From a bacterium (GTDB lineage: Bacteria > Bacillota > Clostridia > UBA1381), in assembly GCA_030536655.1 (NCBI GenBank), contig JAUNPN010000005.1, forward strand, positions 1-51,697: a stretch of 51,697 nt of DNA. Direction: 5' to 3'. The translations under genes and the position numbers were made by a program. Below the pieces are notes generated by a model, which ran no database searches, was not told the origin of the DNA, and saw nothing but the letters and a program-made list of their open reading frames with translations. This document shows, in pieces, positions 7,079 through 48,122 of this stretch (the first letter of the stretch is position 1; each line of letters starts with the position of its first letter).

Positions 7079-7084
7079 AATTTC

Positions 7085-8823: not shown

Positions 8824-8851
8824 TTAGAGTGATTTTATGGAGGTGTAATAA

Positions 8852-9031: not shown

Positions 9032-9048
9032 TTTCGGCTTGAATAAAA

Positions 9049-9077: not shown

Positions 9078-9132
9078 CTGATTATATAACAGCTTTTTAT
9101 GGCTCTTTTTAAGATTTCTGCCGGGGGCTTAT

Positions 9133-23700: not shown

Positions 23701-24095
23701 TTGTGGGTGCATTCAATATTGAGCTTGGTGCATCGGCAGAGCTTTCAGATATTGACAGCAGCGCTTGGTACGCTCCGTATGTAGGCGCATGCTATGCGGC
23801 AGGTATAATTACAGGCTATGACGACGGCGAATTTAAGCCGAATAATCTTGTTACAAGACAAGAGATGGCTGTAATGGTATTAAGAGCGGCTCAGTATAAG
23901 AATGTTACAATCGAAACACCGAATGAGAAGGTTGACTTCACAGACGCTGATAAGATTGCGGCATATGCGGCAGAGGCTGTTGAAACGCTCCAGAAGGCAG
24001 GTATCATCAACGGAATGGAAGATGGTAAGTTTGCCCCGGCAGATACAGCTACAAGAGCTCAGGCAGCTAAGATTTTGTATACTTTCTGTAAGTAA
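20724..24095 (+). CDS. Large secreted SLH-domain protein with lectin-like and aBig-type domains
   Basis: 1123 residues. Signal peptide 1-29. A Pro/Thr linker at ~70-100 (PTPEPTPTVAPGQ). Two related beta-sandwich modules end in ELYIDNIEV (~250) and NIIIDNYMIE (~450), both with a pattern of the type VWSKAEIYM...VDG...VLWG. Next come several atypical Ig-like (aBig) repeats (e.g. WEVTDSSSIQIDKDGDVKVF; ITWGSSNTAIKINGENAKV). A Gly/Ser hinge lies near 900-915, and three C-terminal SLH modules from ~945 (FAPNDDITRAEFAKIVVGAF; FKPNNLVTRQEMAVMVL; FAPADTATRAQAAKILY). Anchored by SLH to the wall, with a probable glycan-binding front end. Pairs with the upstream SLH gene. Confidence 0.88.
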   Translation: MLKSNFKKLVSLLSTAAMLVSLSVPAVFADGTEIKDDTANLLASGDVLMSDNFDNLDEGALIQYEFIPTPEPTPTVAPGQTAEPTATPKPTQGPYTGLDSVDLYVGGGSANNNQTTGIFVKDGVGVDGSKALALVSGARANASNGPRMEFKRPLMDDKYVITFKAYPTSRQDVYLNDSAASNAASKPLNLNKDEWNDIEIFVSRSGSDVGRIVNVNGVTNTDFSGTTGEAPVVWGIQANNAGELYIDNIEVKVSTVLPTPIPTPSPEPIRQLGIGDGNDFEEYTSGMTVITMTSSAQEPADDIAGFLVHIGSRNGGSSNTNCTIGGGKEGNGLVIANGQFYSANRGARAQLITPTVESDVNYKVTFDVKKTNANNDLYFASSTTSNDGTPAGLEADVWSKAEIYMAGGQQIIFVDGRFIKVSATTELPVLWGSNNNDVGNIIIDNYMIEAADDKSVLDAITASLDIANDEKTVYPGNDGVYNFINGFKVADIIIGKNISWEALELSNNEWVPTEDIKITGTNLIINNKNSEKEYKLVATVTDGDLSSTKEFLLKYIETEDVVKTVIDNLELPLSVEAIMFENDVYNVSNNFSLPLSEWVTEIDWEVTDSSSIQIDKDGDVKVFPKNTDPITLTATVSYNGQSMTKTFPISLLKYYRICLHSVEDELSNTVLYPKGNDGEALTSVTLSPDGETVLSYDVAFKTISVDDARLAVSWKSSDVKVLTNDGVISVVDKEAHPVTLTKTVTYTLEGEQIVSSSKDYSIKVQFNPDTMQAGIDEIVKSYAASKNADEESETYKAAYNRAMEILSDRYKTRGDAVYEENFDDIPSSVDDDFTLPVEGYFGSKITWGSSNTAIKINGENAKVTQPSKDTNVQLKATFTSGASTNADAYTATVEVEGTGKSSGGSGGSSGGGSSYRGSLGTSSYTNPITTPVFGVEPTATQAPEADGFTDLGSVSWAEEAINALADKGIVSGRDAVTFAPNDDITRAEFAKIVVGAFNIELGASAELSDIDSSAWYAPYVGACYAAGIITGYDDGEFKPNNLVTRQEMAVMVLRAAQYKNVTIETPNEKVDFTDADKIAAYAAEAVETLQKAGIINGMEDGKFAPADTATRAQAAKILYTFCK

Positions 24096-26370: not shown

Positions 26371-26550
26371 TTAAGGAACCACTGATTAATTAACGCCTAA
26401 TGGCTTAGCACGCATTGAACTTTCATATTTTCCGTCATATCATACAAAAATCTCTCGACATACGCAAGTATGCTTTCGAGCTTTTTGCATAATCTGACGA
26501 AAAATCTGACTGCGTTCACTATGAACTATAATTAATCAGTGATTCCTTAA
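26371..26550. mobile_element. MITE-like element, 180 bp, with ~22-bp terminal inverted repeats
   Basis: The left end TTAAGGAACCACTGATTAAT and the reverse complement of the right end (TTAAGGAATCACTGATTAAT) differ at one base and continue for a few bases more. The interior holds no open frame of size and includes smaller inverted repeats (CTCGACATAC...GTATGCTTTCGAG). TTAA at each outer edge could be part of the repeat or a target duplication. No transposase is nearby, so it would depend on one in trans. Confidence 0.7.
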
Positions 26551-27455: not shown

Positions 27456-28400
27456 ATGGCAAAAGTAGTCAGGATTGAAAAGAATCGTAATTACACGGTA
27501 ATGTCGAATTATCATTTAAGGGATAAATCATTATCATTAAAAGCAAAGGGATTGTTATCCATAATGCTTTCCTTGCCCGATGATTGGGATTACTCGAACA
27601 GAGGGCTTGCGGGGATAGTCAAGGAGGGCGTAAGCGCCGTCGGTTCGGGACTGAGGGAGCTTGAAGCGGCGGGATATATCAAGCGTACAAAACTCCGCGA
27701 CGCACAGGGCAAAATAACCGATGTGGAATACGTCATATACGAGCAGCCGCATAAGGAAAAAACGACTGAAACGGAGCAGGCAACCGAAACGGAAGAAGCC
27801 GAACCGGAGCCTGCTTCCGAAAACAGTGATTTTTTTGCGCCGGAAGAAAATTCATATGCGAATGAGCCGCATATCGAAAATAAGGATGTGGTTCCTGCGG
27901 ATATGGAAAACCGCGAGCAATTAAATACTAATAAAACAAATACTAAAAAATTAAATACTGATTGTAATAAATATCAATCAACCAATAATACGGAGCCGGA
28001 GGAAAAAACAAAGAGCGCTTTAGCAATGCCCGTTGATTGGATTGATAGATATAACAAAACAATGGCGGCAATAAAAAATCAAATCGATTATGACAGCCTT
28101 ATCACAACGAACGACGCGGAGCTTGTAAACGACATTGTAAGCGTTATGACGGAGGTAATGCTCGTTGATACCACCTGCTACACCATTGAGGGAAAGAAAA
28201 TTCCCGCGGAGCTTGTGCGTATCAACTACGGCAAAATCACATACGGCAGACTTGACACGTTTTTACTTGATTTCAGCCGTTTGGACAGCAAGATAAATAA
28301 TCCTAAAAACTACCTGATTACAGCCTTGTATAACATCGCTTCCACAGCGGAAACTTCGATTACAAACAGAGTAAATCACGATATGTACGGAGGTATGTAA
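27456..28400 (+). CDS. DUF6017-type helix-turn-helix replication protein of the element
   Basis: 314 residues. The N-terminal winged helix (LSLKAKGLLSIMLSLPDDWD then YSNRGLAGIVKEG, ELEAAGYIKRTKLRD) is the DNA-binding type seen in replication initiators. An acidic/Gln/Asn-rich linker (~100-185) follows. The C-terminal DUF6017 region (INYGKITYGRLDTFLLDFSR, NPKNYLITALYNIAS) completes the usual architecture. Such proteins are thought to support replication of Tn1549-like elements; that role is family knowledge. GGAAGGAG ribosome site. A terminator follows. Confidence 0.82.
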   Translation: MAKVVRIEKNRNYTVMSNYHLRDKSLSLKAKGLLSIMLSLPDDWDYSNRGLAGIVKEGVSAVGSGLRELEAAGYIKRTKLRDAQGKITDVEYVIYEQPHKEKTTETEQATETEEAEPEPASENSDFFAPEENSYANEPHIENKDVVPADMENREQLNTNKTNTKKLNTDCNKYQSTNNTEPEEKTKSALAMPVDWIDRYNKTMAAIKNQIDYDSLITTNDAELVNDIVSVMTEVMLVDTTCYTIEGKKIPAELVRINYGKITYGRLDTFLLDFSRLDSKINNPKNYLITALYNIASTAETSITNRVNHDMYGGM

Positions 28401-28422
28401 TATGCTTTCATATAACGCGCGA

Positions 28423-28447
28423 GCGCCTTAGAAAGGCGTTTTTTTAA
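28423..28447 (+). terminator. Intrinsic terminator upstream of the giant SLH gene
   Basis: 7-bp stem GCGCCTT/AAGGCGT (one G-T pair) with three-base loop and a run of T's, then an AGGAGG ribosome site ~30 bases later. Confidence 0.7.
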
Positions 28448-28487
28448 TGCAATTTTCAAAAATTTCAAGAAGGAGGATTTTTCAGAA

Positions 28488-31400
28488 ATGAAAACAAAAA
28501 ATAAAATCAAAAGAGTTTTAGCCGGAATTATGGCGGCAAGTATGGCAATGAGTATTGTCCCGACAATCTCATTTGCGGCGCAGTCAAACGAGTATGTAGA
28601 CCCGGCGGACGTATGGATTGAAGCGAACGGCAGAACCAATGAATTAGACGTGAACGCCACGACAACGTATGAAACTACTTTTTGTCCTGTCTGTGATATG
28701 GAGACTACACAGCTTACCTATCGCGTCCCCGAATATACAAAGTCGGGAGAAACGGCTTTAAACCGCGGCGTCAAATGGTCGGACGGAACTATGATTGACG
28801 GTGAAAGCACAGGCAACACCGACAGCGGAACGCCCGGCATTGATGCGTATTTCACGGGGTATCATTATACAAAATCCGTGTGTCAGAACTGCGGTATTAT
28901 CAACACCGTTGACGGCTTGGGCAGTTATTCGTTCAGTAAAAACGTATACGGTCTTAACCCCTGCGACCATAACTTTTTTATGGATTTTGACAATACCACA
29001 TACACGCCGTACAACAGCAAATACCATATGACAACATTAAAAGCCGGTGAATACTGTCAATTCTGCAAGGGTACTCACGCAAGAGCGACAGAAAAACAGG
29101 AAGCGCACAGCTTTGATGAAACGGTTGACGGCGAGCTTGGCAATCAGCGTTTCCACCTTACGGGCGAATGCGAGGACTGCGGTTACAAGAAAAATGAATA
29201 TGCCGCTGCAAAGTCGGTCATTCAGAGCTACTACGGCAAGGTTGACGGAAAAGCGCATACCGTCACCGTTTCCGATTTATCGGAGGATGGCGTGCATACC
29301 AAAATCCGTTACGGCACAGAAGCGGGAAAATGCAATTTGACCTCTGCGCCTAATTATACGGAGGAAGGTTACTACCCCGTATATTATGAGATTGATTACA
29401 GCTACGAGGGCGAGAGTATGACGGAAAACGGCGTCAGCTATGTATGGCTGCTTGCGGATAATTCGGACAATGTAACTACAAACAGTGTTCACACTCACGA
29501 TTACCGCTATCTTGAAACGGTATGCCCGACTTGCACGGAACTTGGCTATGACCGTTTCCAATGCTCAGAGTGCGGAGCGTTGCAGAAAACAAACTACACT
29601 CCGGCAAACGGTCACGATTACAGCACAATCGTAATTCGTGAAGCGAGCTGTCAGCAGGGCGGATTGGAATTACACTCCTGTAAAAACTGCGGCAGTTATT
29701 ACACCGAAAATACCTCAATGACCGACCACAAGTATCAGACTGCCGTAATCCCCGCAACTTGCACAATGAACGGGTACACTGAACACAAGTGTATTGATTG
29801 CGGCTACAAGTACATCACGGATTTAACGCCGCTTGCAAAACACGATTACCGCGAGAAAGTAACCGCGCGGACGTGTACGACAAGAGGATTTACAACATAC
29901 AGTTGCGCGAACTGCGACGATATTTACATCAGCGACTACACCGAGCCGACAGGTCACGAATGGGATAACGGTCACACGGTTACAAATTCTACTTGTGAGA
30001 GCGAGGGTGTAAAGGAATATAACTGCAAGCATTGTGACGAAAAGATGATACAGGCAATTTCAGCAACGGGACACACACCGGGCGCGGCGGCTACTTGCAC
30101 AGAACCGCAGACTTGCGAAACATGCGGAGCTGTTCTTGAACTTCCGACAGGTCATCACTATTCCGAAGCGGTAACAATTCCAACTTGCACGGAAATGGGA
30201 TATACGACTTATATTTGCGATGATTGCGGCAGCTCGTATGTTGGAAACTACACCGATAAAATTGAACATCATTATCACAGTGTAATCACTCCGGCAACTT
30301 GTACGGAATTAGGATTTACAACTTATACCTGTACCGAGTGCGGAGATGAATATAAAAGTGATTACGTTGACAAGAAAGCTCACGCTTACAAGTTAGCAGT
30401 AACACCTCCGACTTGTACGACAATGGGATTTACGACCTATACCTGTTCCGACTGTGGCGACAGTTATGTTGCAGATTACACCGACGTACTTCCCCACAAT
30501 TACACAAAAGAGGTAATTGAGCCGACTTGCACCGAGCAAGGTTACACTGTATATACTTGTCCCGACTGCGACAAAGAGTTTATCGGTGACGAAAAAGAAT
30601 CGATTGAACATCACTATAATTCAGTTGTGACATCTCCTACTTGTACCGAAATGGGATATACAACGTACATTTGCGAGGACTGCGGATATTCCTATGTTAC
30701 CGATTACACAAATCCGACAGGTCACAGCTATGACGAAGTTGTAACCGCACCGACTTGTACGGAAATAGGATTTTCAACGTTTACTTGTAAGGATTGCGGT
30801 AATAGCTATATAGGCAACGAAACAGCAAAGCTGCCGCATAATTACGATAAGGCAGTGACCGTGCCGACTTGTGAGGAAATGGGCTTCACTGTTTTTACTT
30901 GTAAAGACTGCGGCGAAACCTACACAGGCGATTATACGGACGCAAACGGTCACAGCTATACAGAAAGTGTAACAGAACCCACTTGTACGGAATTGGGATA
31001 TTCAACGTTTACCTGCGAGATTTGCGGTCACAGCTACAAAGGCAACGAAACAGCACAGGCTGAACATCAGTATAAGTCGGTTGTAACCGCGCCGACTTGT
31101 ACGGAGCTGGGATTTACCACAATCACTTGTGAAAGCTGCGGTGAAACACACAAGATTGATTTTGTCGAAGCTATGGGACATAAGCCGTCCGATTGGATTG
31201 TTGACGTTCCTGCAACGATTGAGAACAGCGGCAGCAAGCATAGAGAGTGTACCGTCTGCGGAGAAACGCTTGAAACTGTGGAAATCCCGCAGCTTACCGA
31301 CAAGGACAATTCGGACGAGGACGGTCATTCAACTGTCGGAGATTACAATATTTTAATTACCGACAAGGATGGCAAGCCCATATTTGACAGCAAAATCAGC

Positions 31401-34319
31401 ATTGATACTAACGATAATCTGACAATCGTCCTTCCCGACGGCAGATTATTGAGCGCTGAGGATATTACCACAATCACGGTTATTGACGTAAGAACACAGC
31501 AGGCGGCAAAGGATATATCTATTTTTATCGCCGATACCTCAAACAATGCAGCTACGGGAAAAACCGATGAAAACGGACAACTTAAAGTCCCCAACACCGA
31601 GAGTTCGACAGGCAGTTCAAACGGCACTGTTGCTGACAGCGACAACACCTATGTAGTCGTTGTAACCGATAAAAACGGCGTACTCATTCCGAATTGTAAT
31701 GTTACAGTCGGCGACAACTACTCAATCAATGTTAAACTCCCCGAAAATACGGCGTTTAACAAGGATAACCGTATTACTGTTACAGTAGTAACCGAAAAGG
31801 GCGAGCCTGTGAACAGCTTGCGCGTTCAGCTTATCGGCGACGGCGATTTTGTCGAGAACGGCTATACCAACATCAACGGTCAGATAACACTGCCTATGTC
31901 AAATACCGATATTACGGACGAGGACGGCAAGGGCGAAGTCGGCGATAAGGACGGCGACAAGGTTTATGATTATATTGTAACTGTTTCAGATGAAACGGGA
32001 CTTATCAAAGATGCTCTTGTTACTTTGATTGCAAAGGATAATTCTGTTCTTGTATGCCTGCCGGAGGGTAAAGTAATCGACTATTTCAACCGTACTACTG
32101 TTAAGGTTATCAGAGCAGACGGAACACCTGTTGAGAATTGGAAAGTCAGCGTTTACAATAAGGACGGCAGCGGCTTACGCACAGAAGTTACGGACGAGAA
32201 CGGAATTGTAATCGTTCCTCCGCTTTCGGAAGCTCCGATTTCAAAGCCGACACCTACACCGAACCCCGACGCGGACGCTACACCGCTTCCGGGCGTTGAT
32301 ACCACACCGAAGCCGGATAATACGGATAAGCCCGGTGAAACGGATAAACCGAATACAACTGAAACTCCTGCGCCGTCTGATAAGCCGACGGAAACCGATA
32401 AACCAAGTGAGACGGGTAAACCGTCAGAAACCGAGAAGCCAAGCGAACCGACTCCGACTCCCGATTTAGGCGACGGCTCTGTTGTTCAGAATAAGAATTA
32501 TAAGTACCGTGTGTATGTATGGGACAACGACGGTGTTATTACTGATTTTGGATTGATTAAATTGCAGGATAATGGCAGTCTTGAAATTGAATTGCCGACA
32601 AGCAAGATGTTAAATCCTGAAAATAAAGTAAATATCAGAGTGATAAATGAAAATGACGGTTCACCTGTTAAAGGTATCACTGTAAATGTAACTGATACAG
32701 CAAAGAACACAGCATCCGATATTACCAACAGTAACGGAATTGCAGTTGTTCCCGTTTCCGACAGCGACATTACAGACGCTAACGGCAATGCGCAGGTTAA
32801 GGACGACGAGGGCAATCTCTACAATATAAATGTTGCTACCGAAACAAAGGGCAATATTGAGGGCGCAGTCGTTCAGATTAAGGACGGTAAAATTACTGTT
32901 ACGTTACCGGACGGTACTGTAATTGACTATGCCGACAGAACGACGGTTACAGTTACAGACCGTGACAATAAGCCTGTATCTGCTATGCCTGTAAATGTCA
33001 AGGATAATAAGGGCGGCAACAGAACGGAGATTACGGACGAAACCGGCAAAGTTGTTGTACCTCCGTTTTCAGAAGCATATACCGATAAGGACGGAAACGC
33101 AATTATAAACGGTTATACCGTAGTTGTCGAAGATACAAAAGCAAAAATCGAAAATGCCTATGTTGCAATCAAGGACGACAAAATCAGCGTAAAGCTCCCC
33201 GATACAAACGAGCTGACAACTTCTAATCAGACCACAGTAACCGTAACGGATAAGGACACGAAGCCTGTTAAGGATATGAGCGTAACCGTAACGGATAAGA
33301 ACAGCAAAACCGCGACAAAGACAACGGACGCAAACGGTAAAATTACCGTACCCGTCAAGTCAAGCGGCGGCTCATCAGGTGGCGGAAGTCACGGCGGTGG
33401 CGGCGGTGGTTCGTCAATCGTTTCAAATTCGTACAATGTAAAGGTTGTCGATAAGGACGGCAAGACTGTAAATGTTTCAAAGTCTGTAAAGGACGATAAA
33501 ATTACATTGACGCTTCCGAGCGGTACAGTTCTTGACGGCGGCAATTATTATACAATCACCGTAACCGACAGAAACGGCAAGGTTCAGCCGGATATTGATG
33601 TTACGATGAAAGACAAAAAGGACAATTCCGCAAACGGTACTACCGACAAAAACGGTCAGCTTGTACTTCCCGCGACCGAGCATAAATTGTATGTGGTCGG
33701 ATATGAGGACGGTACATTTAAGCCGGAGGGCAATATGACGCGAGCCGAAGCTGCGGCAATATTTGCCCGTAATATTGCCGAGCGCAAGGGCGAGAATATA
33801 ACGAACTCAAAATCCTTATTTACAGACGTTGACGCTAAACTTTGGTATAATCAGTACATCAGCTACCTTGAAAAATACGATATAATCGAGGGTTACGATG
33901 ATGGCACATTTAAACCCGACGAGCATATTACAAGAGCTGAATTTGTGACTATGTGCTCAAGGTTCTATAACCTGTTCGATAAGACAACGGAGAGCAAGAA
34001 CAACAAATTTACCGATGTTGCAAGCTCGCATTGGGCATACAAGTTCATCAACAGCGCTACAGCTATGGATTGGATTAAGGGTTATGCGGATGGCACTTTC
34101 AAGCCGGATAACAATATAACTCGCGCCGAGGTTGTGGCTATCGTAAATCGTGTGACAGACCGTGAAGCGGATACCGAATATGTGAATAAGAACCTGTCAA
34201 ACCTTAACCGTTTCAGTGATTTGACAGATAAAGGATATTGGGCTTGGCCAGACGTGATGGAAGCCGCAAATACGCATATGGCGGTTGAGTCAGCAGACGG
34301 TGAAACTTGGGTAAAATAA
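28488..34319 (+). CDS. Giant SLH-anchored surface protein with ~15 Cys-rich repeats, carried by the element
   Basis: 1943 residues. Signal peptide 1-31 (cleavage near SFAA). Residues ~60-235 contain irregular CxxC pairs. About 336-940 is a tandem array of ~15 units of ~37 residues with the pattern H-x-Y, ~8 residues, C-T-x-x-G-[YF]-x-x-[YF]-x-C-x-x-C; three Cys and one His per unit could bind metal or form disulfides. From ~945 come at least seven ~110-residue beta-rich repeats (VTVTDKDGKPV..., TDENGKxxVP endings), as in Cna-B/adhesin stalks. A Pro/Thr/Lys linker lies near 1255-1320 and a Gly/Ser hinge near 1630. Three SLH modules from ~1735 attach it to the cell wall polymer. Probably an adhesin or surface-display cargo that pays off only in SLH-type hosts. 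Confidence 0.9.
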   Translation: MKTKNKIKRVLAGIMAASMAMSIVPTISFAAQSNEYVDPADVWIEANGRTNELDVNATTTYETTFCPVCDMETTQLTYRVPEYTKSGETALNRGVKWSDGTMIDGESTGNTDSGTPGIDAYFTGYHYTKSVCQNCGIINTVDGLGSYSFSKNVYGLNPCDHNFFMDFDNTTYTPYNSKYHMTTLKAGEYCQFCKGTHARATEKQEAHSFDETVDGELGNQRFHLTGECEDCGYKKNEYAAAKSVIQSYYGKVDGKAHTVTVSDLSEDGVHTKIRYGTEAGKCNLTSAPNYTEEGYYPVYYEIDYSYEGESMTENGVSYVWLLADNSDNVTTNSVHTHDYRYLETVCPTCTELGYDRFQCSECGALQKTNYTPANGHDYSTIVIREASCQQGGLELHSCKNCGSYYTENTSMTDHKYQTAVIPATCTMNGYTEHKCIDCGYKYITDLTPLAKHDYREKVTARTCTTRGFTTYSCANCDDIYISDYTEPTGHEWDNGHTVTNSTCESEGVKEYNCKHCDEKMIQAISATGHTPGAAATCTEPQTCETCGAVLELPTGHHYSEAVTIPTCTEMGYTTYICDDCGSSYVGNYTDKIEHHYHSVITPATCTELGFTTYTCTECGDEYKSDYVDKKAHAYKLAVTPPTCTTMGFTTYTCSDCGDSYVADYTDVLPHNYTKEVIEPTCTEQGYTVYTCPDCDKEFIGDEKESIEHHYNSVVTSPTCTEMGYTTYICEDCGYSYVTDYTNPTGHSYDEVVTAPTCTEIGFSTFTCKDCGNSYIGNETAKLPHNYDKAVTVPTCEEMGFTVFTCKDCGETYTGDYTDANGHSYTESVTEPTCTELGYSTFTCEICGHSYKGNETAQAEHQYKSVVTAPTCTELGFTTITCESCGETHKIDFVEAMGHKPSDWIVDVPATIENSGSKHRECTVCGETLETVEIPQLTDKDNSDEDGHSTVGDYNILITDKDGKPIFDSKISIDTNDNLTIVLPDGRLLSAEDITTITVIDVRTQQAAKDISIFIADTSNNAATGKTDENGQLKVPNTESSTGSSNGTVADSDNTYVVVVTDKNGVLIPNCNVTVGDNYSINVKLPENTAFNKDNRITVTVVTEKGEPVNSLRVQLIGDGDFVENGYTNINGQITLPMSNTDITDEDGKGEVGDKDGDKVYDYIVTVSDETGLIKDALVTLIAKDNSVLVCLPEGKVIDYFNRTTVKVIRADGTPVENWKVSVYNKDGSGLRTEVTDENGIVIVPPLSEAPISKPTPTPNPDADATPLPGVDTTPKPDNTDKPGETDKPNTTETPAPSDKPTETDKPSETGKPSETEKPSEPTPTPDLGDGSVVQNKNYKYRVYVWDNDGVITDFGLIKLQDNGSLEIELPTSKMLNPENKVNIRVINENDGSPVKGITVNVTDTAKNTASDITNSNGIAVVPVSDSDITDANGNAQVKDDEGNLYNINVATETKGNIEGAVVQIKDGKITVTLPDGTVIDYADRTTVTVTDRDNKPVSAMPVNVKDNKGGNRTEITDETGKVVVPPFSEAYTDKDGNAIINGYTVVVEDTKAKIENAYVAIKDDKISVKLPDTNELTTSNQTTVTVTDKDTKPVKDMSVTVTDKNSKTATKTTDANGKITVPVKSSGGSSGGGSHGGGGGGSSIVSNSYNVKVVDKDGKTVNVSKSVKDDKITLTLPSGTVLDGGNYYTITVTDRNGKVQPDIDVTMKDKKDNSANGTTDKNGQLVLPATEHKLYVVGYEDGTFKPEGNMTRAEAAAIFARNIAERKGENITNSKSLFTDVDAKLWYNQYISYLEKYDIIEGYDDGTFKPDEHITRAEFVTMCSRFYNLFDKTTESKNNKFTDVASSHWAYKFINSATAMDWIKGYADGTFKPDNNITRAEVVAIVNRVTDREADTEYVNKNLSNLNRFSDLTDKGYWAWPDVMEAANTHMAVESADGETWVK

Positions 34320-34331: not shown

Positions 34332-34370
34332 GCAGAAAAGCAGTCCTACAGGATTGCTTTTCTGCCCTTT
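34332..34370 (+). terminator. Intrinsic terminator after the giant SLH gene
   Basis: 16-bp stem (34332-34347 GCAGAAAAGCAGTCCT with 34350-34365, one G-T pair) and two-base loop, followed by CCTTTATAT. It starts 13 bases past the stop codon. Confidence 0.8.
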
Positions 34371-34421: not shown

Positions 34422-34871
34422 ATGCAAATACGGGAAATGATATTGTCTGATTATGATGATATATACGCATTATGGACAAATATTGAGAGTATGGGACTGC
34501 GTAGCCTTGACGACTCAAAAAAAGGTATATCAGCCTTTTTGAAAAGAAATCCAACTACAAGTTTTGTTGCTATTGATAATAATAAAATAGTTGGCGCTAT
34601 TTTATGCGGACACGACGGACGCAGAGGATATATTTATCATACAGCAGTCCATAAAAATTTTTGCCATCAAGGAATTGCAACAGGGCTTATAAATGCTGCT
34701 ATAAAAGCTCTGCAAAAAGAACATATAACAAGAGTTTGCTTAAATGTCGTGAAAACAAATGAACAGGGTAAAACTTTTTGGATAAATCACGGCTGGGAGG
34801 AAAAAGAATTTTTGGGCTTTTACAGTAAGTCTATTACTGATAAGGAAAATAAACCGCTGTTTGAATTATAA
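34422..34871 (+). CDS. GNAT-family N-acetyltransferase (first of tandem pair)
   Basis: 149 residues from ATG 34422, preceded by AAGGAG at proper distance; a further upstream start lies in the terminator and lacks a ribosome site. GNAT core: strand-helix start IREMILSDYDDIYALW, acetyl-CoA loop HKNFCHQGIATGLINAA (Q-x-x-G-x-A), and NEQGKTFWINHGW at the C-terminal side. Substrate unknown. AT-rich compared with the transfer genes. Shares long motifs with the next gene (LKRNP, DGRRGYIYHT), so the pair arose by duplication. Confidence 0.88.
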   Translation: MQIREMILSDYDDIYALWTNIESMGLRSLDDSKKGISAFLKRNPTTSFVAIDNNKIVGAILCGHDGRRGYIYHTAVHKNFCHQGIATGLINAAIKALQKEHITRVCLNVVKTNEQGKTFWINHGWEEKEFLGFYSKSITDKENKPLFEL

Positions 34872-34899
34872 TATAAGAGTAATAGCGAGGAATAAGTAT

Positions 34900-35343
34900 A
34901 TGCTTAAAATAAGAAAAATGAAATCAGATGATTATGACAATGTATATAATTTGTGGTTATCTTGTGCTGGTATGGGGTTAAATAACATTGACGACACCAA
35001 AGACGGAATTGACAGGTTTTTGAAAAGAAATCCCGATACTTGTTTTATAGCGGAATATGAAAACAAGGTGGTTGGAGTAATAATGGTCGGAAATGACGGT
35101 CGTAGAGGTTACATATATCACACATCGGTAAAATCTGAATATCGCAATCAAGGTATTGGTTCAAAATTAGTTGACACTGCGATAAATGCGTTGAAAAATC
35201 AAGGTATAAACAAAGTTGCATTAGTTGTATTTACCAAAAATGAAAGCGGTAATGCTTTTTGGGAAAAACAAGGTTTTACACAGCGAAACGATTTAATATA
35301 CCGAAACAAGGCTCTCACAGATATGACAAGAATTGATACATAA
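34900..35343 (+). CDS. GNAT-family N-acetyltransferase (second of tandem pair)
   Basis: 147 residues from ATG 34900, with GAGG upstream. Same layout as its neighbour: IRKMKSDDYDNVYNLW, RFLKRNPDTCFIAEYE, GNDGRRGYIYHTSVKSEYRN then QGIGSKLVDTAINAL (Q-x-x-G-x-G CoA loop), ESGNAFWEKQGF. Starts 28 bases after the first copy ends, so cotranscribed. Cargo; target unknown. Confidence 0.88.
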   Translation: MLKIRKMKSDDYDNVYNLWLSCAGMGLNNIDDTKDGIDRFLKRNPDTCFIAEYENKVVGVIMVGNDGRRGYIYHTSVKSEYRNQGIGSKLVDTAINALKNQGINKVALVVFTKNESGNAFWEKQGFTQRNDLIYRNKALTDMTRIDT

Positions 35344-35512: not shown

Positions 35513-35992
35513 TTGCAGGAAGAAATTGAAAAGAAAACGATTGCGTTAGTTGTATCAGCTTCAAAAATGACGGGGCGCGTACTGCAGGCGGCAATCCGTG
35601 AGTATCTGCGTATACGGCAGAAGCACAAGAATAACAAGCAGATAAAAGGCTATCAAGGCAAACAAACGATAAAGCAGCTCATAAAATCAGGCGCGGCGTT
35701 ATCCAATATTGAAGTTACGGACGAAAATATAAAATCCTTTGAAAGTGTGGCAAAGAAATACAGCATTGATTACGCGCTGAAAAAGGACAGCTCGCAGGAA
35801 CCGCCGAAATATCTCGTATTCTTCAAGGGAAAGGACGTTGACGTTATCAATATGGCGTTCAACGAATATTCCAAAAAGCAACTTCGGGAAAAACCGTCGC
35901 TTCGCAAAGCGCTGTCAAAAATGCGGGAGCTTGCAAAGACGATAAATCCGAAAGACCGTGCGCACCGCAAGGACCGGGAGCGTGATATATGA
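35513..35992 (+). CDS. PcfB/DUF3801-family conjugal transfer protein
   Basis: 159 residues from TTG 35513, with AAAGGAG about ten bases upstream. Matches DUF3801/PcfB in size and content: TIALVVSASKMTGRVLQAAI near the N terminus, KYLVFFKGKDVDVINMAFNE in the middle, and a basic Lys/Arg-rich tail. In pCF10, PcfB/C/D act around the coupling protein and relaxosome. The stop overlaps the ATG of the virD4-type gene (ATGA), implying translational coupling. First gene of the core transfer block. Confidence 0.85.
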   Translation: MQEEIEKKTIALVVSASKMTGRVLQAAIREYLRIRQKHKNNKQIKGYQGKQTIKQLIKSGAALSNIEVTDENIKSFESVAKKYSIDYALKKDSSQEPPKYLVFFKGKDVDVINMAFNEYSKKQLREKPSLRKALSKMRELAKTINPKDRAHRKDRERDI

Positions 35993-37767
35993 GGATAGAT
36001 AAAAAAATTATCATTCAAAATATGCCCTATCTCTTGTTCTTCTGGATTGCCGATAAGCTCGGATATATGTATAGGATAACATATGGGAACAAGTTAATAG
36101 GAATGATTAAGGGAATTGCGGAGTTATTTAAGGCTCCGCTTTTTTCGTTCCACCCGCGCGATATGCTGATTGGTATTCTCGGCGCACTTGCGGTTAAAGG
36201 AGCAGTTTATCTTAAAGGCAAGAACGCGAAAAAGTACCGCAAGGGCATTGAATACGGTTCGGCGCGCTGGGGCACGGCTGCGGATATTGCGCCGTATATG
36301 GATAAGGATTTTTACAATAACGTCCTTTTAACTAACACGGAACGGCTGACTATGGAGAGCCGCCCGAAGCAGCCGAAGTATGCAAGGAATAAAAATGTCC
36401 TTGTAATCGGCGGTTCGGGCAGCGGCAAAACGAGGTTTTTCATAAAGCCTAATTTAATGCAAATGCACTCATCATACGTTGTTACCGATCCGAAAGGCAC
36501 AGTATTGATTGAATGCGGCAAACTCCTACAGCGCGGAGGTTATCGGATAAAATCGTTGAATACGATAAATTTCAAAAAGAGTATGAAATACAATCCGTTT
36601 CAATATATCCGAAGCGAAAAGGATATTTTAAAGCTCGTGAATACCCTTATCGCCAATACCAAAGGTGAGGGCGAAAAATCCGGCGAGGATTTCTGGATTA
36701 AAGCCGAACGGCTTTACTACTGCGCTCTTATCGGGTACATATGGTACGAAGCGCCGGAAGAAGAAAAGAACTTTATTACGCTCCTCGATATGATAAACGC
36801 CTCCGAAGCGAAAGAGGACGACGAGAACTATAAAAGTCCCGTTGATTTGCTCTTTGAACGTCTGGAGAAAAAGGAGCCGGAGCATTTTGCGGTAAAGCAG
36901 TATAAAAAATACAAAATGGCAGCGGGCAAAACAGCAAAATCTATTCTTATTTCTTGTGGCGCCAGATTAGCTCCATTCGACATAAAAGAATTAAGGGATT
37001 TAATGGAGTATGACGAGCTGGAGCTTGACACATTGGGCGACAGGAAAACGGCGCTGTTCGTTATTATTTCAGATACGGATGACACTTTTAATTTTGTAGT
37101 CGCTATAATGTACACACAATTATTCAATTTACTATGCGATAAGGCGGACGACGTTTACGGCGGCAGGCTTCCCGTTCACGTTCGGTTTTTGCTTGATGAA
37201 ATGGCGAATATCGGACAGATACCGAAGTTTGAAAAACTGATTGCCACAATCCGAAGCCGTGAAATCTCCGCTTGTATCATATTACAGGCGCAGTCCCAGT
37301 TAAAAGCTATCTACAAGGACAACGCCGACACAATCACGGGGAATTGCGATACTACACTGTTTCTCGGCGGTAAGGAAAAATCAACGCTCAAAGAAATTTC
37401 CGAAGCTCTCGGAAAAGAAACGATTGATACCTTTAATACCTCCGAAACACGGAGCAATCAAAATTCCTACGGATTGAATTATCAGAAACTTGGAAAGGAG
37501 CTGATGTCACAGGATGAATTAGCTGTAATGGACGGCGGCAAGTGCATATTACAGCTTCGCGGCGTGCGACCGTTTCTGTCGGAGAAATATGATATAACGG
37601 CGCACCCCAGATACAAATACCTTGCCGATTTTGACGAAAGGAACAAGTTTGATATGGAACGATATATGAAAAAAAGAAAAACGGTTGTAAAGCCGGACGA
37701 GGTATTCGATTACTACGATATTGAATTGCCTCAAACAAAAACAGAAACTAAAATCAAAGGAGGATAA
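35989..37767 (+). CDS. VirD4/TraG-type type IV coupling ATPase
   Basis: 592 residues. An N-terminal membrane portion (segments ~10-30 and ~55-70) is followed by IEYGSARWGTAADIAPYM, Walker A GGSGSGKT (141-148), VVTDPKGTVLIECG, and Walker B FLLDEMANIG (D403, E404). The conserved IILQAQSQLKAIY and TLFLGGKE follow. The protein docks the DNA-relaxase complex to the transfer channel. Both neighbours (PcfB and Maff2) are those expected in Tn1549-type elements. The C-terminal ~40 residues are charged and variable. Confidence 0.95.
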   Translation: MRIDKKIIIQNMPYLLFFWIADKLGYMYRITYGNKLIGMIKGIAELFKAPLFSFHPRDMLIGILGALAVKGAVYLKGKNAKKYRKGIEYGSARWGTAADIAPYMDKDFYNNVLLTNTERLTMESRPKQPKYARNKNVLVIGGSGSGKTRFFIKPNLMQMHSSYVVTDPKGTVLIECGKLLQRGGYRIKSLNTINFKKSMKYNPFQYIRSEKDILKLVNTLIANTKGEGEKSGEDFWIKAERLYYCALIGYIWYEAPEEEKNFITLLDMINASEAKEDDENYKSPVDLLFERLEKKEPEHFAVKQYKKYKMAAGKTAKSILISCGARLAPFDIKELRDLMEYDELELDTLGDRKTALFVIISDTDDTFNFVVAIMYTQLFNLLCDKADDVYGGRLPVHVRFLLDEMANIGQIPKFEKLIATIRSREISACIILQAQSQLKAIYKDNADTITGNCDTTLFLGGKEKSTLKEISEALGKETIDTFNTSETRSNQNSYGLNYQKLGKELMSQDELAVMDGGKCILQLRGVRPFLSEKYDITAHPRYKYLADFDERNKFDMERYMKKRKTVVKPDEVFDYYDIELPQTKTETKIKGG

Positions 37768-38870: not shown

Positions 38871-39404
38871 ATGAAAAAATACAACATCATATACGCCGAC
38901 CCGCCGTGAAAATACCGCTGCGGTCACATAAAGGGTGCGGGTTGTAATCATTATCCCGTAATGGAGCTTGACGAAATCTGCGCTTTGCCTGTTAATAAAA
39001 TTACAGTGGATGACTGCATTTTATTTTTATGGACAACGTTCCCGAAAATGTATGAAGCGCTTGACGTTCTTACCGCTTGGGGTTTTGAGTATAAAACGGT
39101 CGCGTTCGTATGGATAAAGCAAAACCCAAAAAGCAGGGATTGGTTTACGGGCTTAGGCAGATGGACGCGCTCAAACGCGGAAATATGTCTGCTTGCCACA
39201 AAAGGCAGACCGGTACGGTTTTCAAGAGCCGTTCACCAGCTCATTATTTCGCCCGTTGAGGAACACAGCAAGAAGCCCGATATTACAAGAGATAAAATTG
39301 TGGAGCTTGCGGGCAATCTTCCGCGCATAGAGCTTTTCGCCCGTCAAAGAGTCCTCGGCTGGGACGCTTGGGGCAATGAGGTAGAATGTGATATTGAGCT
39401 TTAA
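38871..39404 (+). pseudogene. MT-A70 type adenine-specific DNA methyltransferase with TGA in the DPPW motif
   Basis: ATG 38871 follows AAGGAGGG. The frame reads MKKYNIIYADPP then TGA (38907-38909), where MT-A70 enzymes have Trp of the catalytic DPPW motif, then KYRCGH and 160 further undisturbed codons: LFLWTTFPKMYEALDVLTAW, TKGRPVRFSR, REKIVEL-like and RIELFARQRV, all typical of the family. So one TGG-to-TGA change breaks an otherwise intact N6-adenine methylase of 177 residues. An internal ATG (38961) would give a protein without the catalytic motif. TGA ends other genes in the window, so it is not a Trp codon. Recent inactivation, or read-through, are the alternatives. Confidence 0.85.
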
Positions 39405-40208: not shown

Positions 40209-40589
40209 ATGCCGTATGTACCCGTACCAAAAGACTTGACTACGGTAAAAACAAAGGTAGCGTTTAACTTAACCAAACGCCAGCTCATATGCTTCGGCGG
40301 CGCGGCTGCCGTTGGAATACCTACATATTTTCTGACGCGCGGCTTTTTAGGCAACACCGGCGCTGTTATGGCGCTTTTAGCTGCGGCGCTTCCGTTCTTT
40401 GTGTTCGCTATGTACGAGAAGAACGGACAGCCGCTTGAAAAGATTTTGAAAAACTATTACATCACACGAATTAAAAGACCGAAAGTGCGGCCGTATCGGA
40501 CAAATAATCTGTACGCCGCATTGGAACGGCAAAGTAAATTGAATAAGGAGGTTCAAATTATTGTCGGAAACAAAGAAAGAAAAACCTAA
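40209..40589 (+). CDS. PrgI-family conjugal transfer membrane protein
   Basis: 126 residues. MPYVPVPKDLTTVKTKVAFN at the N terminus and two hydrophobic helices (LICFGGAAAVGIPTYFLTRG; AVMALLAAALPFFVFAMYEK) are the PrgI signature, followed by a basic tail. PrgI resembles VirB3 and pairs with VirB4 in the Gram-positive type IV secretion channel. Its end overlaps the VirB4 start by 29 bases, suggesting coupled translation. Confidence 0.92.
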   Translation: MPYVPVPKDLTTVKTKVAFNLTKRQLICFGGAAAVGIPTYFLTRGFLGNTGAVMALLAAALPFFVFAMYEKNGQPLEKILKNYYITRIKRPKVRPYRTNNLYAALERQSKLNKEVQIIVGNKERKT

Positions 40590-42984
40590 AATTACTATTT
40601 CTAAGAATAAGCCTTTAAACGGCAAACAAAGGCGGCAGCTTGCCGAAGCCGTGAAAAAGGCGAAAATGCAGGGCAAGATTGCAATGTCAGCGCAGGAAAC
40701 CATACCGTATATTGAAATGCGTCCCGATGGGATTTGCAAGGTTACAAAAACCTTTTATACAAAAACTATCCGCTTTTTGGATATAAATTATCAGCTTGCG
40801 AGGAACGAGGACAAAAACACGATTTTTGAAAACTACTGTAATTTTCTTAATTACTTTGACAAGTCCATATCGGTCCAGCTTTCTTTTATCAATCAGACAA
40901 TGAATATCGCTGATTTTGAAAAGAGTATTTATATTCCCTTGCAGAATGATAGGTTTGATGAAATTCGTATCGAGTATTCGGAAATGCTGAAAAATCAGCT
41001 TGCCAGAGGAAACAACGGACTTGTCAAGCACAAGTACATCACGTTCGGGATTGAAGCCGACAACATACAGGCGGCAAAGCAGAAACTTGAACGCATTGAA
41101 GCGAACGTGCTGAATAATTTTAAAATTCTCGGCGTACAGGCGTTTCCGCTCAACGGCATTGAAAGGCTGGAGCTTTTACATTCGTGCTTTAATCAGGACG
41201 AAAATGCAAAATTCAATTTCAGCTGGAATATGATACACAAAACGGGATTATCCACCAAGGATTTTATCGCGCCGACCTCGTTCGATTTCTCGGACGGACG
41301 CACGTTCCGTATGGGAAAGAAAATCGGCGCGGTATCATTTTTACAGATACTTGCGCCGGAGCTCACAGACCGTATGCTTGTGGATTTCCTCGACTTGCAG
41401 AATAATTTATCCGTAAATATTCACATCAAAAGCGTAGACCGGACGGACGCGATAAAGACAATTAAACGCAAGCTGACCGACATAGATAAAATGGTTATTG
41501 AAGAACAGAAAAAGGCAGTCAGAAGCGGTTACGATATTGACATCATTCCGTCCGACCTGTCCACTTACGGCGGCGAAGCTAAGAAGCTGTTGGAGGAATT
41601 GCAGTCAAGAAATGAAAGAATGTTCCTTGTAACAATTCTCATAATGACTACCGCCGATAAGCGCAGGGATCTTGAAAATATCATCTTCGCGGCGCAGAGT
41701 ATCGCGCAGCAGAATAACTGTCCGTTAAGACGGCTCGATTATCAGCAGGAAGCGGGGTTAATGTCAAGCGTGCCGATTGGTATAACTCAGATAGAAATTC
41801 AGCGGAGCTTAACCACGTCAAGCGCCGCTATTTTTGTACCCTTTACCACTCAGGAGCTTTTTTCGGACAGCAAAGAAGCGTTGTACTGCGGTTTAAATGC
41901 GCTGTCAAATAATATGATAATGGTTGACCGCAAACTGCTGAAGAACCCGAACGGGCTTGTGCTCGGCACGCCCGGCAGCGGTAAATCATTCAGCGCAAAA
42001 AGAGAAATTACAAACGTATTTCTTGTCACAAACGACGATATTTACATATGTGATCCCGAAGCCGAGTATTATCCCCTTGTACGCGCATTGGGCGGTCAGG
42101 TTATCAGACTCAGCCCTACATCAAAGGACTATATCAATCCTATGGATATTAACCTCAACTACTCGGACGAGGAAAATCCTCTTGCACTGAAATCAGACTT
42201 TATTCTTTCATTATGTGAGCTTATCATAGGCGGACGCACAGGTCTTGAACCCGGCGAAAAGAGTATTATAGACCGCGCGCTCAGTAAGGTATATGAGGAA
42301 TATTTTAAAAATCCCGTACCCGAAAATATGCCGATTTTGGGCGATCTTTACCGCGTTATCCGCGAACAGAACGACGCGGAAGCTCACAGAATTGCAACGG
42401 CGCTTGAAATGTATGTGACGGGTACGCTTAATGTGTTCAATCACCGCACAAACGTTGATATATCCAACCGTATCGTATGCTTCGATATTAAAGAACTCGG
42501 CAAGCAGTTAAAGAAAATCGGGATGCTCGTTGTGCAGGATCAGATTTGGAACAGAGTCACCATTAACCGCAGCGAGCATAAATCCACACGCTACTATGTA
42601 GACGAATTTCACTTACTCTTAAAAGACGAGCAGACGGCGGCGTACAGTGTAGAGATATGGAAACGGTTTCGTAAATGGGGCGGTATTCCGACAGGTATTA
42701 CGCAGAACGTCAAAGACTTATTGGGCAGCAGCGAAATAGAGAATATATTTGAAAATTCCGATTACATATATATGCTGAATCAGGCACAGGGCGACCGTGA
42801 AATACTTGCAAAGAAGCTCGGTATCTCGCCGCAGCAGCTTTCCTATGTTACGCAGTCGGGAGCCGGCGAGGGATTGTTATTTTACGGCAGTACGATAATT
42901 CCGTTCGTTGACCGCTTCCCGAAAGATACGAAGCTCTACGGCTTAATGACAACCCGTCCTACCGAGGTGGTTCAAATTGAGTAA
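40561..42984 (+). CDS. VirB4/TraE-type conjugation ATPase
   Basis: 807 residues from TTG 40561, with AGGAGG nine bases upstream. Provides energy for the transfer channel. Walker A GTPGSGKS at 469-476; Walker B YYVDEFHLLL (D681, E682); NPMDINLNYSDEENPLALKS and EKSIIDRALSKVYEEY are typical. The C-terminal TGITQNVKDLLGSSE resembles the conserved TQ segment. Length is as expected. Its stop overlaps the cytosine methylase start by eight bases. Confidence 0.95.
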   Translation: MSETKKEKPKITISKNKPLNGKQRRQLAEAVKKAKMQGKIAMSAQETIPYIEMRPDGICKVTKTFYTKTIRFLDINYQLARNEDKNTIFENYCNFLNYFDKSISVQLSFINQTMNIADFEKSIYIPLQNDRFDEIRIEYSEMLKNQLARGNNGLVKHKYITFGIEADNIQAAKQKLERIEANVLNNFKILGVQAFPLNGIERLELLHSCFNQDENAKFNFSWNMIHKTGLSTKDFIAPTSFDFSDGRTFRMGKKIGAVSFLQILAPELTDRMLVDFLDLQNNLSVNIHIKSVDRTDAIKTIKRKLTDIDKMVIEEQKKAVRSGYDIDIIPSDLSTYGGEAKKLLEELQSRNERMFLVTILIMTTADKRRDLENIIFAAQSIAQQNNCPLRRLDYQQEAGLMSSVPIGITQIEIQRSLTTSSAAIFVPFTTQELFSDSKEALYCGLNALSNNMIMVDRKLLKNPNGLVLGTPGSGKSFSAKREITNVFLVTNDDIYICDPEAEYYPLVRALGGQVIRLSPTSKDYINPMDINLNYSDEENPLALKSDFILSLCELIIGGRTGLEPGEKSIIDRALSKVYEEYFKNPVPENMPILGDLYRVIREQNDAEAHRIATALEMYVTGTLNVFNHRTNVDISNRIVCFDIKELGKQLKKIGMLVVQDQIWNRVTINRSEHKSTRYYVDEFHLLLKDEQTAAYSVEIWKRFRKWGGIPTGITQNVKDLLGSSEIENIFENSDYIYMLNQAQGDREILAKKLGISPQQLSYVTQSGAGEGLLFYGSTIIPFVDRFPKDTKLYGLMTTRPTEVVQIE

Positions 42985-45490: not shown

Positions 45491-46102
45491 ATGAAAGACA
45501 AAAAATTCAAAGCCGTCAACCGTGAAGAAAACTACGCTAAGAATAATGCGCCCGATATACAGTTAGGGCGACACGGTGATTTTGCCGAGAAGCCGCAGCG
45601 GTTTGCTTCACGGAAGATGAAAACATATCAGGCTCGGCAGCCGACAAATGACGGCGCGGAGCTTACCGCCGATATATCGCATTCCGCTGATACGGAAAAT
45701 TTCGCTTTCGCTCCCGAACAGCAGGAATACGGCGGATATAATTCTGACGCTGTAAATGTTGATACCGTCCGACAGCCTGATTTGCAAATAATCAAATCGG
45801 ATATTGGATTTAGTAAAGAAAATGCAGATATGCAGCGGCAGACGTCGCAGCGCAAAAACCGTACATATCAACGGTGCACGCAGTTTAGTCAAAAATCCGA
45901 CGATTATGATTTCACAAAGAAAAATCAGTCGTCGGATTACAGTTTTACGGACACATCGGAGCCGTACTCCCCCGATACCGCAGAACAAGCGGAAAACGCT
46001 GTTGACGAAACAACGGACGCCGTTCAAAATCACTTTGAGAATAACGCTCCGAAATCCGAACCGCCTAAACGCTCACATAAAAAAATATTACCGCCGTCAT
46101 AA
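45491..46102 (+). CDS. N-terminal part of the CD1108-type transfer protein (frameshifted)
   Basis: 203 codons from ATG 45491 (GGAAAGGA upstream), highly charged, Gln/Asn/Ser-rich, without fold motifs, ending KRSHKKILPPS. At 46078-46084 a run of seven A's is followed by the +1 frame, which continues with the same composition (YYRRHNPHSPKSADFNISDT) and leads into the membrane and NlpC/P60 parts. The normal family protein is one chain of roughly 870 residues, so this is the front piece of a split gene. Loss of one A in the DNA or transcript would restore it. Confidence 0.75.
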   Translation: MKDKKFKAVNREENYAKNNAPDIQLGRHGDFAEKPQRFASRKMKTYQARQPTNDGAELTADISHSADTENFAFAPEQQEYGGYNSDAVNVDTVRQPDLQIIKSDIGFSKENADMQRQTSQRKNRTYQRCTQFSQKSDDYDFTKKNQSSDYSFTDTSEPYSPDTAEQAENAVDETTDAVQNHFENNAPKSEPPKRSHKKILPPS

Positions 46103-48122
46103 TCCGCACTCGCCCAAAAGTGCGGATTTTAATATTTCCGATACATCAAAGGACGCAGAGTATAATTTTAATGCTGAAAAAACCGATAAACCTTTTAACC
46201 GCGCGGAGCATAAAGCAGATAGTAATTCACAAGCGGTTGATAATGCAGATACTCAAAAAGAGTCCGCAGCGGAGCAGGACGAGGATTACAACATCAGTGA
46301 AGCCGTTGACAATTCCGATACCGCGTTTGACCGTGTATCAGAGCGCGCGGACAGGTCGGAAACCGCGACGCAGACGAAACGGAAGAAAAATAAACGATTA
46401 CAGCAAAAGCAGCGTTTACGGACTGACGATACCGTTTCATCAGAAACGGAAGCGGATATTTCTGAAAAGAAACAGTCAGAACATTCCTCAAAGGATTTTC
46501 AGTTTAAGCGCGCTGAAAAGGCTGAATTTAAGGCAAACAAAGCGCGCGCAAAGGCTGATAAGTCGGAAGAAAAATTACCTCATAAAAAGAAGCTCAAAAA
46601 TAAGCGGCTTTATGACGAGGAAAAACAGAAGCCCAAAACCCGGCTGATATTTGAAAAAGAGGTAAAGCCTCAAAAGGATTTGTACCACCGTTCACCGATA
46701 AATACAGTTACAGCGGCAGCAGGGGCGCAGCTTATGAATAAAGCTCACTCCAAAATCAGCGAGGTTGAAAACGACAATTCGGCGGTTGAGGGCGCTCATA
46801 AGGCGGAACAGAAAGCGGAAACGCTTACCCGCTACAGCGCGCGGACGGCAAGATATATTTATCAGAATAAAAAAGCCGCGCCATATAAACGGGCGCAGAA
46901 ATTACGCTTTAAGGCGGAACGGGCGGAAATCAAAGCCGCCTATCAAAAAACGCTTGCGGAAAATCCCGAACTGAAAAAATCAGCGTTAAAGAAGTTTCAG
47001 CAAAAGCAGCGGATAAAAAAGCAGTATCAAAGAGCGAAACCGGCGGAGCAATCCGCAAAGGCGGCCAAAAAGTCCGCACAAGCAGCAAAGGAAACCACAG
47101 TACGGATTGTAAATTTCGTGAAGCGGCATAAAGGAGCTATCGCCGCTGTGCTTATAATCGCGCTCGTGGTATGCTGGCTTGCAACCGCAATTTCGTCCTG
47201 CGCCGTTATGGGTACGTCGGGAATAAATTCAATTTTGACTTCCTCCTACCTTGCCGAGGACGAGGATATTTATATGGCGGAGGGTTATTACGCGGGGCTT
47301 GAAGCCGATTTACAAAGCGAGATTGACAGTATCGAAACCGACTACGGCGGCTATGACGAATACAATTACAGCCTTGCGCAGATAGGTCATAATCCCTATG
47401 AACTTATTTCCTACCTCACCGCAAAATATGAATGTTTCGTTTTTGCGGATATTGAAACGGAGCTTGACGCCCTCTTTGAGCAGCAATATATTTTAACGCT
47501 TACCGAGGAAGTTGAAACAAGAATTGATGATGAGGGCAACGAGTACGAATACAGGATATTGAATGTCACACTTACAAACAATAATCTGAATATGCTTGCA
47601 AATACGAACCTTACGGACGACCAAAGGGAATTATACGGAATATACCTTGAAACAAAGGGCAACCGCGATTATCTGTTTGCGGACGATATATATTCAAACG
47701 CCGTCACGCCTCCGAACTACACTATTCCCGGCGAAGCATTGTCGGACGCGACATTCAGACGATTGATTACCGAAGCCGAGAAATATTTGGGTTTTCCCTA
47801 TGTCTGGGGCGGTTCGTCGCCGTCAACAAGTTTTGACTGTTCAGGTTTTGTATGTTGGGTTTTCAAAAATTCCGGCGTATATCCGTTGGAGCGTACAACC
47901 GCACAGGGCATTTGCGACCAATGCGCCATTATTCCTCGCAGCGAAGCAAAGCCCGGCGATATTATCTTTTTTAAAGGTACATACAACACAAGCGAGGTGT
48001 CGCACGTCGGAATTTATGTCGGTGAAAATATGATGATCCACTGCGGAAATCCCATTCAGTACACAAGTATTGACAGTGCGTATTGGACGCAGCATTTTTA
48101 TTGTATGGGCAGATTGAATTAA
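45804..48122 (+). CDS. CD1108-type NlpC/P60 peptidoglycan hydrolase of the transfer machinery (C-terminal frame)
   Basis: The open frame runs from 45804, but conserved content begins near 46085, after the A7 run. It has a basic Lys/Arg-rich helical region (e.g. PYKRAQKLRFKAERAEIKAA), one transmembrane segment (GAIAAVLIIALVVCWLATAI), a CD1108-typical extracellular region (YDEYNYSLAQIGHNPYELIS), and a C-terminal NlpC/P60 domain with YVWGGSSPSTSFDCSGFVCW (catalytic Cys 679 of this frame) and SHVGIYVG (His). The enzyme locally opens the cell wall for the conjugation channel. The active site is intact. Without the upstream part it has no good start; ATG 46735 is a possible internal start just before the helical region. 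Whether full-length protein is made depends on the frameshift. Confidence 0.85.
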   Translation: MDLVKKMQICSGRRRSAKTVHINGARSLVKNPTIMISQRKISRRITVLRTHRSRTPPIPQNKRKTLLTKQRTPFKITLRITLRNPNRLNAHIKKYYRRHNPHSPKSADFNISDTSKDAEYNFNAEKTDKPFNRAEHKADSNSQAVDNADTQKESAAEQDEDYNISEAVDNSDTAFDRVSERADRSETATQTKRKKNKRLQQKQRLRTDDTVSSETEADISEKKQSEHSSKDFQFKRAEKAEFKANKARAKADKSEEKLPHKKKLKNKRLYDEEKQKPKTRLIFEKEVKPQKDLYHRSPINTVTAAAGAQLMNKAHSKISEVENDNSAVEGAHKAEQKAETLTRYSARTARYIYQNKKAAPYKRAQKLRFKAERAEIKAAYQKTLAENPELKKSALKKFQQKQRIKKQYQRAKPAEQSAKAAKKSAQAAKETTVRIVNFVKRHKGAIAAVLIIALVVCWLATAISSCAVMGTSGINSILTSSYLAEDEDIYMAEGYYAGLEADLQSEIDSIETDYGGYDEYNYSLAQIGHNPYELISYLTAKYECFVFADIETELDALFEQQYILTLTEEVETRIDDEGNEYEYRILNVTLTNNNLNMLANTNLTDDQRELYGIYLETKGNRDYLFADDIYSNAVTPPNYTIPGEALSDATFRRLITEAEKYLGFPYVWGGSSPSTSFDCSGFVCWVFKNSGVYPLERTTAQGICDQCAIIPRSEAKPGDIIFFKGTYNTSEVSHVGIYVGENMMIHCGNPIQYTSIDSAYWTQHFYCMGRLN

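Follow-up and report, generated by a model that had tools for sequence, protein, structure and literature searches.

A conjugative-element surface protein of Clostridia with SLH anchoring and a CxxC-repeat array whose opening and closing units point to shared metal sites

Several findings are reported in the present study for a 1943-residue surface protein encoded within the window, i.e. the whole stretch of 51,697 nucleotides analysed here (contig JAUNPN010000005.1, Clostridia, UBA1381). First, tandem CxxC repeats of clostridial surface proteins follow a rule that is new here: the first unit of an array carries an extra Cys or His beside its His, the last unit lacks its first Cys, and internal breaks are partly compensated. 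Second, the surface protein travels with conjugative elements. Third, the anchor type of the element-borne surface protein follows the wall of the host. Herein, we propose that it is an accessory, host-matched fibrillar protein of the element with a shared-metal rod and a ligand-binding head, and as a whole this explanation is given somewhat better than an even chance.

The coding sequence starts with ATG at 28488 behind the ribosome-binding site AAGGAGG (28470-28476). The description of a 1943-residue SLH-anchored protein in an earlier note, made from the letters of the window alone, was borne out by an intact reading frame of that length and by three SLH domains above the Pfam cut-off (PF00395, 122.7 bits; Table 1). 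As read from its sequence, the protein is secreted and SLH-anchored; it ends in ...GETWVK in the SLH region, and in none of the homologues did the C-terminal 80 residues contain an LPXTG-like sorting motif. A Gly/Ser-rich hinge lies near residue 1630. Since terminator-like hairpins stand on both sides of the gene, it may form a separate transcription unit; the argument here is position at the gene end, the total number of hairpin matches being no higher than in shuffles.

Table 1. Features of the surface-protein gene and its element (window positions).
Feature	Position	Strand	Basis
Element replication gene (HTH_36 + DUF6017), directly upstream of surface-protein gene	27456..28400	+	
Terminator-like hairpin between replication and surface-protein genes	28421..28441	+	hairpin scan; placed at gene end
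1943-aa SLH-anchored surface-protein gene	28488..34319	+	intact ORF, RBS; 93% full-length paralogue on C216
Signal peptide, residues 1-31	28488..28580	+	read by eye: KNKIKR-hydrophobic-AA; AAQ end kept in homologues
N-terminal head, residues 32-334: four conserved CxxC pairs, Ig-like module at end	28581..29489	+	
Array of 16 CxxC units, residues 335-930	29490..31277	+	
H335-x-H337, extra putative ligand of opening unit	29490..29498	+	HxH/CxH/CxxH in all homologues with readable opening unit
Closing unit: His + CxxC present, first Cys replaced by Ile	31176..31277	+	same state in every homologue with readable array end
Ig-like stalk modules	31389..33407	+	Big_1, bMG3, CarboxypepD_reg matches
Pro/Thr-rich linker within Ig-like stalk	~32235-32480	+	
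Three SLH domains, residues 1735-1895	33690..34172	+	Pfam PF00395
15-bp terminator-like hairpin 3' of surface-protein gene	34332..34365	+	hairpin scan
PcfB-like DUF3801 gene	35513..35992	+	
VirD4 coupling protein, CD1115 family	35989..37767	+	NF045973, 582.8 bits, cut-off 250
VirB4 ATPase, CD1110 family	40561..42984	+	NF045971, 1113.8 bits, cut-off 325
CD1108-family NlpC/P60 mobile-element protein	45804..48122	+	NF045974, 216.1 bits, cut-off 100

The DNA that hosts the gene is a conjugative element of the CD1107/CD1108/CD1110/CD1115 type. Its placement in such an element, already proposed in the earlier note, is confirmed by the VirD4, VirB4 and CD1108 proteins of Table 1 and by a CD1107-like protein (PF14283, 103.8 bits, cut-off 26), all above their cut-offs. 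Downstream of the surface-protein gene the order is two GNAT genes, DUF3801/PcfB, VirD4, TrbL, PrgI, VirB4, CD1108 and CD1107-like, and the names of the transfer module are those of C. difficile genes in the CD1091-CD1118 range of CTn4 (PMC3158075). No relaxase or integrase was identified within the window, whose contig stops before the element does; in other genomes, the homologous gene is flanked by relaxases. In three elements without the surface-protein gene, only 25-92 bp separate the replication gene from pcfB, and this empty slot marks the gene as accessory cargo. The two GNAT acetyltransferase genes (34425-35343) are similar, stand in tandem and follow the surface-protein gene directly on its 3' side. 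On inspection of the translations, an MT-A70-like adenine methylase (38961-39404) and a cytosine-C5 methyltransferase-like protein (42977-43999) are also encoded inside the transfer module. Between a xylulokinase-like gene and the element lies a MITE-like segment of about 180 bp (26371-26550), with 22-bp terminal inverted repeats that are 95% complementary.

The same genome holds four more copies of the gene, on C216 (93% identical), C20, C124 (cut by the contig end) and C174 (distant). In relatives from other genomes and families, the gene adjoins transfer genes, and the order is either rep-gene-pcfB-virD4 or parM-mobC-relaxase-pcfB-like-gene-virD4; the second of these architectures includes an annotated Monoglobus pectinilyticus record with the surface-protein gene split into two frames. 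Such neighbours were observed in nearly every assessable relative outside a deep branch (L045/L046). By inspection, no transfer genes were recognised near the gene in this branch or at two further loci, L156, where a methylase gene is accompanied by further element-like genes, and L014, which holds a relaxase-like ORF. The element on C20 shares 96.2% identity over 8658 bp with an element of another genus, compared with 74% for rpoB and 72-81% for the ribosomal operon of the same two genomes, which indicates recent transfer between genera. The earlier note had regarded the protein as transferable, and had named as the contrary case a chromosomal neighbour that is not mobilised with the element in related strains. 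The extra copies, the transfer-gene neighbours in relatives and the inter-genus segment agree with the former; when the contrary case was looked for, mobilisation with the element was found instead, and the search for the same array in other elements, which the note had also suggested, recovered the gene beside transfer genes in both architectures.

Two further observations concern the history of these genes. Window positions 29500-29999 and 32500-33999 are 100% identical to C216, with surroundings at 67-96% and neighbouring genes at 66-73%; the pattern resembles conversion between elements in which the gene was swapped as a cassette, but may also be a misassembly, most of the genomes being short-read metagenome-assembled genomes. 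In addition, group II introns (RF02004 and RF00029 matches) interrupt two homologous genes near codon 131 (L047:874-1821 and L052:10393-13148), at the same site in two elements, with a reverse-transcriptase ORF in one and none in the other.

SLH modules need a compatible host, as the earlier note had pointed out, and such a host is found here. Two other SLH proteins are encoded upstream in the window (17546-20653 and 20724-24095), and the host genome has 95 SLH matches and CsaB, the marker for pyruvylation of the wall polymer (TIGR03609, 287 bits, cut-off 213). All 19 carriers of the first set have SLH matches, from 61 to at least 139 per genome. In a class-wide sample with related VirD4, SLH proteins were observed in 9/9 carriers, one of which (G111) was classed solely by an SLH ORF directly before virD4, and in 7/18 non-carriers (p = 0.003, ignoring phylogeny). 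CsaB exceeded its cut-off in 7/7 carriers versus 0/7 SLH-free genomes, and sortase was present in all seven SLH-free genomes versus three of the seven carriers. Transferable surface proteins had been expected to be mostly sortase substrates; this is true of C. difficile CTn1/CTn7 (PMC3158075), whereas in the elements studied here the anchor follows the host wall. Conjugative elements would thus carry surface proteins matched to the wall type of the recipient, and this could restrict where the elements persist. A separate idea, that SLH-free hosts hold a sortase protein in the same slot, proved half right: in the SLH-free genome of L069, a Cna-B-type protein with a PPKTG sorting tail (reverse strand, 6582-10229) is encoded beside the replication gene, but it precedes that gene, one gene further upstream, and the rep-pcfB slot itself is closed.

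In a distant clade, the head is the most conserved part of the protein. It is 65-72% identical to that of the window, and elsewhere in the protein identity is 39-64% (first repeats 50-64%, first Ig-like modules 39-51%, SLH region 55-60%); this conservation does not parallel VirD4 identity (26-86%). Homologues also differ in repeat number, from 6 to 22 counted units. The AlphaFold2 model of the head (21 aligned rows) reached pLDDT 79.5, with an Ig-like last part. Foldseek against the PDB gave one unconvincing match for it at E<0.001 and, in a later listing, the Ig-like part; a Pfam search of the head found no known adhesive domain. Such a combination, a tip that is conserved and a stalk that varies in length, would be suitable for an adhesin or receptor, and the protein may plausibly act in adhesion or mating contact. 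In the proposed mechanism, the head would bind a common surface ligand, so that carriers of the element might cling to neighbours or to gut material, helping transfer or persistence; ligand binding is a guess and the least certain part of the explanation. With the protein held on the wall by its SLH modules and the head projected on the rod, the element would display one and the same conserved head on every host that it enters.

Two other roles have to be weighed against the proposed one. The protein might be plain host-adaptation cargo, a mucus or fibre adhesin that serves the bacterium and has nothing to do with transfer. To this we assign a substantial chance, if somewhat below even: the slot is accessory, similar repeats occur on chromosomal surface proteins, and the deep branch L045/L046 has no transfer genes nearby, but the close and repeated linkage to the transfer genes of diverged elements would be odd for arbitrary cargo. 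In two architectures, the gene keeps a fixed place with relaxase or replication genes on one side and virD4 on the other; this, and the conserved head, would suit a mating or surface-exclusion factor, which aggregates donors and recipients or blocks re-entry. In E. coli, conjugation rose up to 100-fold when cell-cell adhesion was engineered (PMC9825185), in line with such a factor. However, many related elements lack the gene, several copies coexist in one genome, and the C. difficile element CTn1 still transferred with its surface gene CD0386 interrupted (PMC3158075), which makes a strict requirement for the surface protein unlikely; we regard this role as possible, at about one chance in three.

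The accessory fibrillar protein proposed here has counterparts among known systems. Like the Cna-B proteins CD0386 and CD3392 of C. difficile CTn1/CTn7, it is a large, secreted, stalked and element-borne surface protein of Clostridia, and no ligand is known for those either (PMC3158075); theirs, however, have an LPXTG sortase anchor and a Cna-B stalk and lack the CxxC array, CD3392 being given as an established SrtB substrate (PMC5569036). With fibrillar adhesins, a class for which SLH anchoring is mentioned (PMC8286594), it shares an N-terminal head, tandem stalk domains and a C-terminal anchor. It differs in having no recognised adhesive domain, in a stalk that is metal-ribbon-like as well as Ig-like, and in being borne by a conjugative element. 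In a literature search of incomplete coverage, no SLH protein was found described on such an element.

The repeat array itself is real: the C-x9-C-x2-C pattern preceded by a His was counted 14 times, compared with a mean of 0.05 and a maximum of 2 among 2000 shuffles of the same composition. A short unit (537-546) and a terminal one that lacks the first Cys raise the number to 16 CxxC units, so that the roughly 15 H/C-C-C repeats of the earlier note become 16, of which 14 have the full pattern, and the usual period is 38 residues instead of about 37. Four further CxxC pairs (66, 132, 190, 228) lie in the head, outside the array. Such units had been thought unusual for an extracellular protein, but in this group many unrelated surface proteins of Clostridia have them, some of these proteins being chromosomal. 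The repeat was detected in 33/196 genomes of the class (E<=1e-6) and in another lineage of the phylum, and plasmid and phage collections contained few copies, the best in the Monoglobus pectinilyticus record. Searches of Pfam, NCBIfam, PHROGs and PDB sequences with the repeat returned short zinc-knuckle matches only, and no full unit matched a Pfam or NCBIfam zinc-finger or zinc-ribbon family above its curated cut-off. The partial matches were to zf_UBZ (16 residues, 0.6 bits over cut-off, in no other unit) and, in a distant array, to zf-DNL (27 residues, 1.3 bits over cut-off, not repeated across units). Thus, the CxxC repeat is widespread in clostridial surface proteins, yet no Pfam or NCBIfam family describes it. 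No description of it was found in the literature searched, the coverage of which was incomplete; one candidate source (PMC7379824) was rejected, as it deals with other, eukaryotic repeats.

Within the element family, the last unit of every readable array lacks the first Cys (GHKPSDWIIDVPATIExxGSKHIECTVCG), and wherever the opening unit is readable the arrays open with HxH, with CxH (L048) or with CxxH (L045/L046). For evidence beyond common descent, units were counted in 46 array clusters of unrelated proteins. Unit detection demanded the His and CxxC, so their retention in last units was imposed rather than found, and the test bore on the first Cys and the extra ligand alone. The first Cys was missing from 29/44 last units, 12/168 interior units and 2/45 first units (last versus interior, p = 1.5e-15). 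Among first units, 22/45 had an extra Cys or His just before the His, compared with 8/168 interior and 2/44 last units (first versus interior, p = 2e-11). Of the 15 last units that have the Cys, many were found on reading to precede another unit or cap overlooked by the script. The extra ligand was also observed in 5/14 units that follow one without the first Cys versus 5/200 otherwise (p = 1e-4), a result that comes mostly from proteins of one genome (L200, L201). Exceptions to the rule are L130 and several interior units of L132 and L108. In the simplest reading of these counts, the first Cys of each unit would serve as a ligand for the metal site of the next, and the interchange of Cys and His at the extra position of opening units argues for metal rather than disulfides.

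Structure prediction of consecutive repeats, the check proposed in the earlier note, was carried out with AlphaFold2 on four units without metal (84 aligned rows), and gave three strands per unit at pLDDT 97. The angle between units is uncertain because pTM was low (0.61). The predicted order within a unit is His, strand, first-Cys turn, strand, CxxC turn, strand, and in this meander the His and CxxC would share one end, with the first Cys at the opposite end, facing the next unit. A Foldseek search of the PDB with this model found nothing at E<0.001, and the structural matches listed for it were all weak (Z at most 3.2), three of them to TFIIS-type C-ribbons of the RNA polymerase subunits Rpa12 and RPC11 (Z 2.2-2.8, 33-34 residues). 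The likeness to this zinc ribbon lies in the predicted antiparallel sheet of three strands, whose second turn holds the CxxC; here, in contrast, the first knuckle is His only, the absent ligand would probably come from the previous unit, and the array is tandem and extracellular. Each CxxC unit would accordingly resemble half a zinc ribbon, and one metal ion, most likely zinc and possibly iron, would be held jointly by the His and CxxC of one unit and the first Cys of the unit before it. The opener would bring its own extra ligand (HxH or CxH), the closer would dispense with the first Cys, and the chain of metal-stapled units would make a stiff rod without covalent cross-links, changing in length by whole units. 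Zinc sharing between neighbours in such a stapled rod is probable and best explains the model together with the counts.

A self-contained site in each unit, formed by its own His and three Cys (H-x10-C-x9-C-x2-C) as beads on a string without shared ions, is the less likely arrangement. The aligned regular units have all four residues without exception, within one 38-residue period, and single units do look like zinc ribbons, but the strand order predicts the first Cys opposite the His and CxxC across the sheet, and such a site does not predict the loss of the first Cys alone in last units or the gain of a ligand in first units. Disulfides stiffening the rod, as in many extracellular Cys-rich repeats, would fit the regular Cys spacing of an extracellular protein but are improbable: a unit has three Cys and an invariant His, C and H interchange in the opening unit, the CxxC has a zinc-knuckle sequence with zinc-finger-like partial Pfam matches, and the gut is anoxic. 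Of the metal-bound or disulfide rods that the earlier note had offered, the metal-bound form is the better reading from strand order, opening and closing counts and C/H interchange.

For the shared-metal chain we therefore hold a general form slightly on the probable side: the widespread clostridial repeat would be a half-zinc-ribbon chain sharing every ion, with opener, interior and closer units, through which mobile elements show one conserved head on any SLH-type host. If this is right, a common uncurated repeat of gut Clostridia gains a structure rule readable from sequence, and metal-stapled rods join the isopeptide, disulfide and calcium designs known for long extracellular stalks. Other clostridial CxxC-repeat surface proteins have the same unit and the same opening and closing rules; they differ in their heads and neighbours, and no link to conjugative elements was seen in those looked at. 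In the L200 and L201 arrays the pattern restarts repeatedly, a unit without the first Cys being followed by one with an extra Cys before the His.
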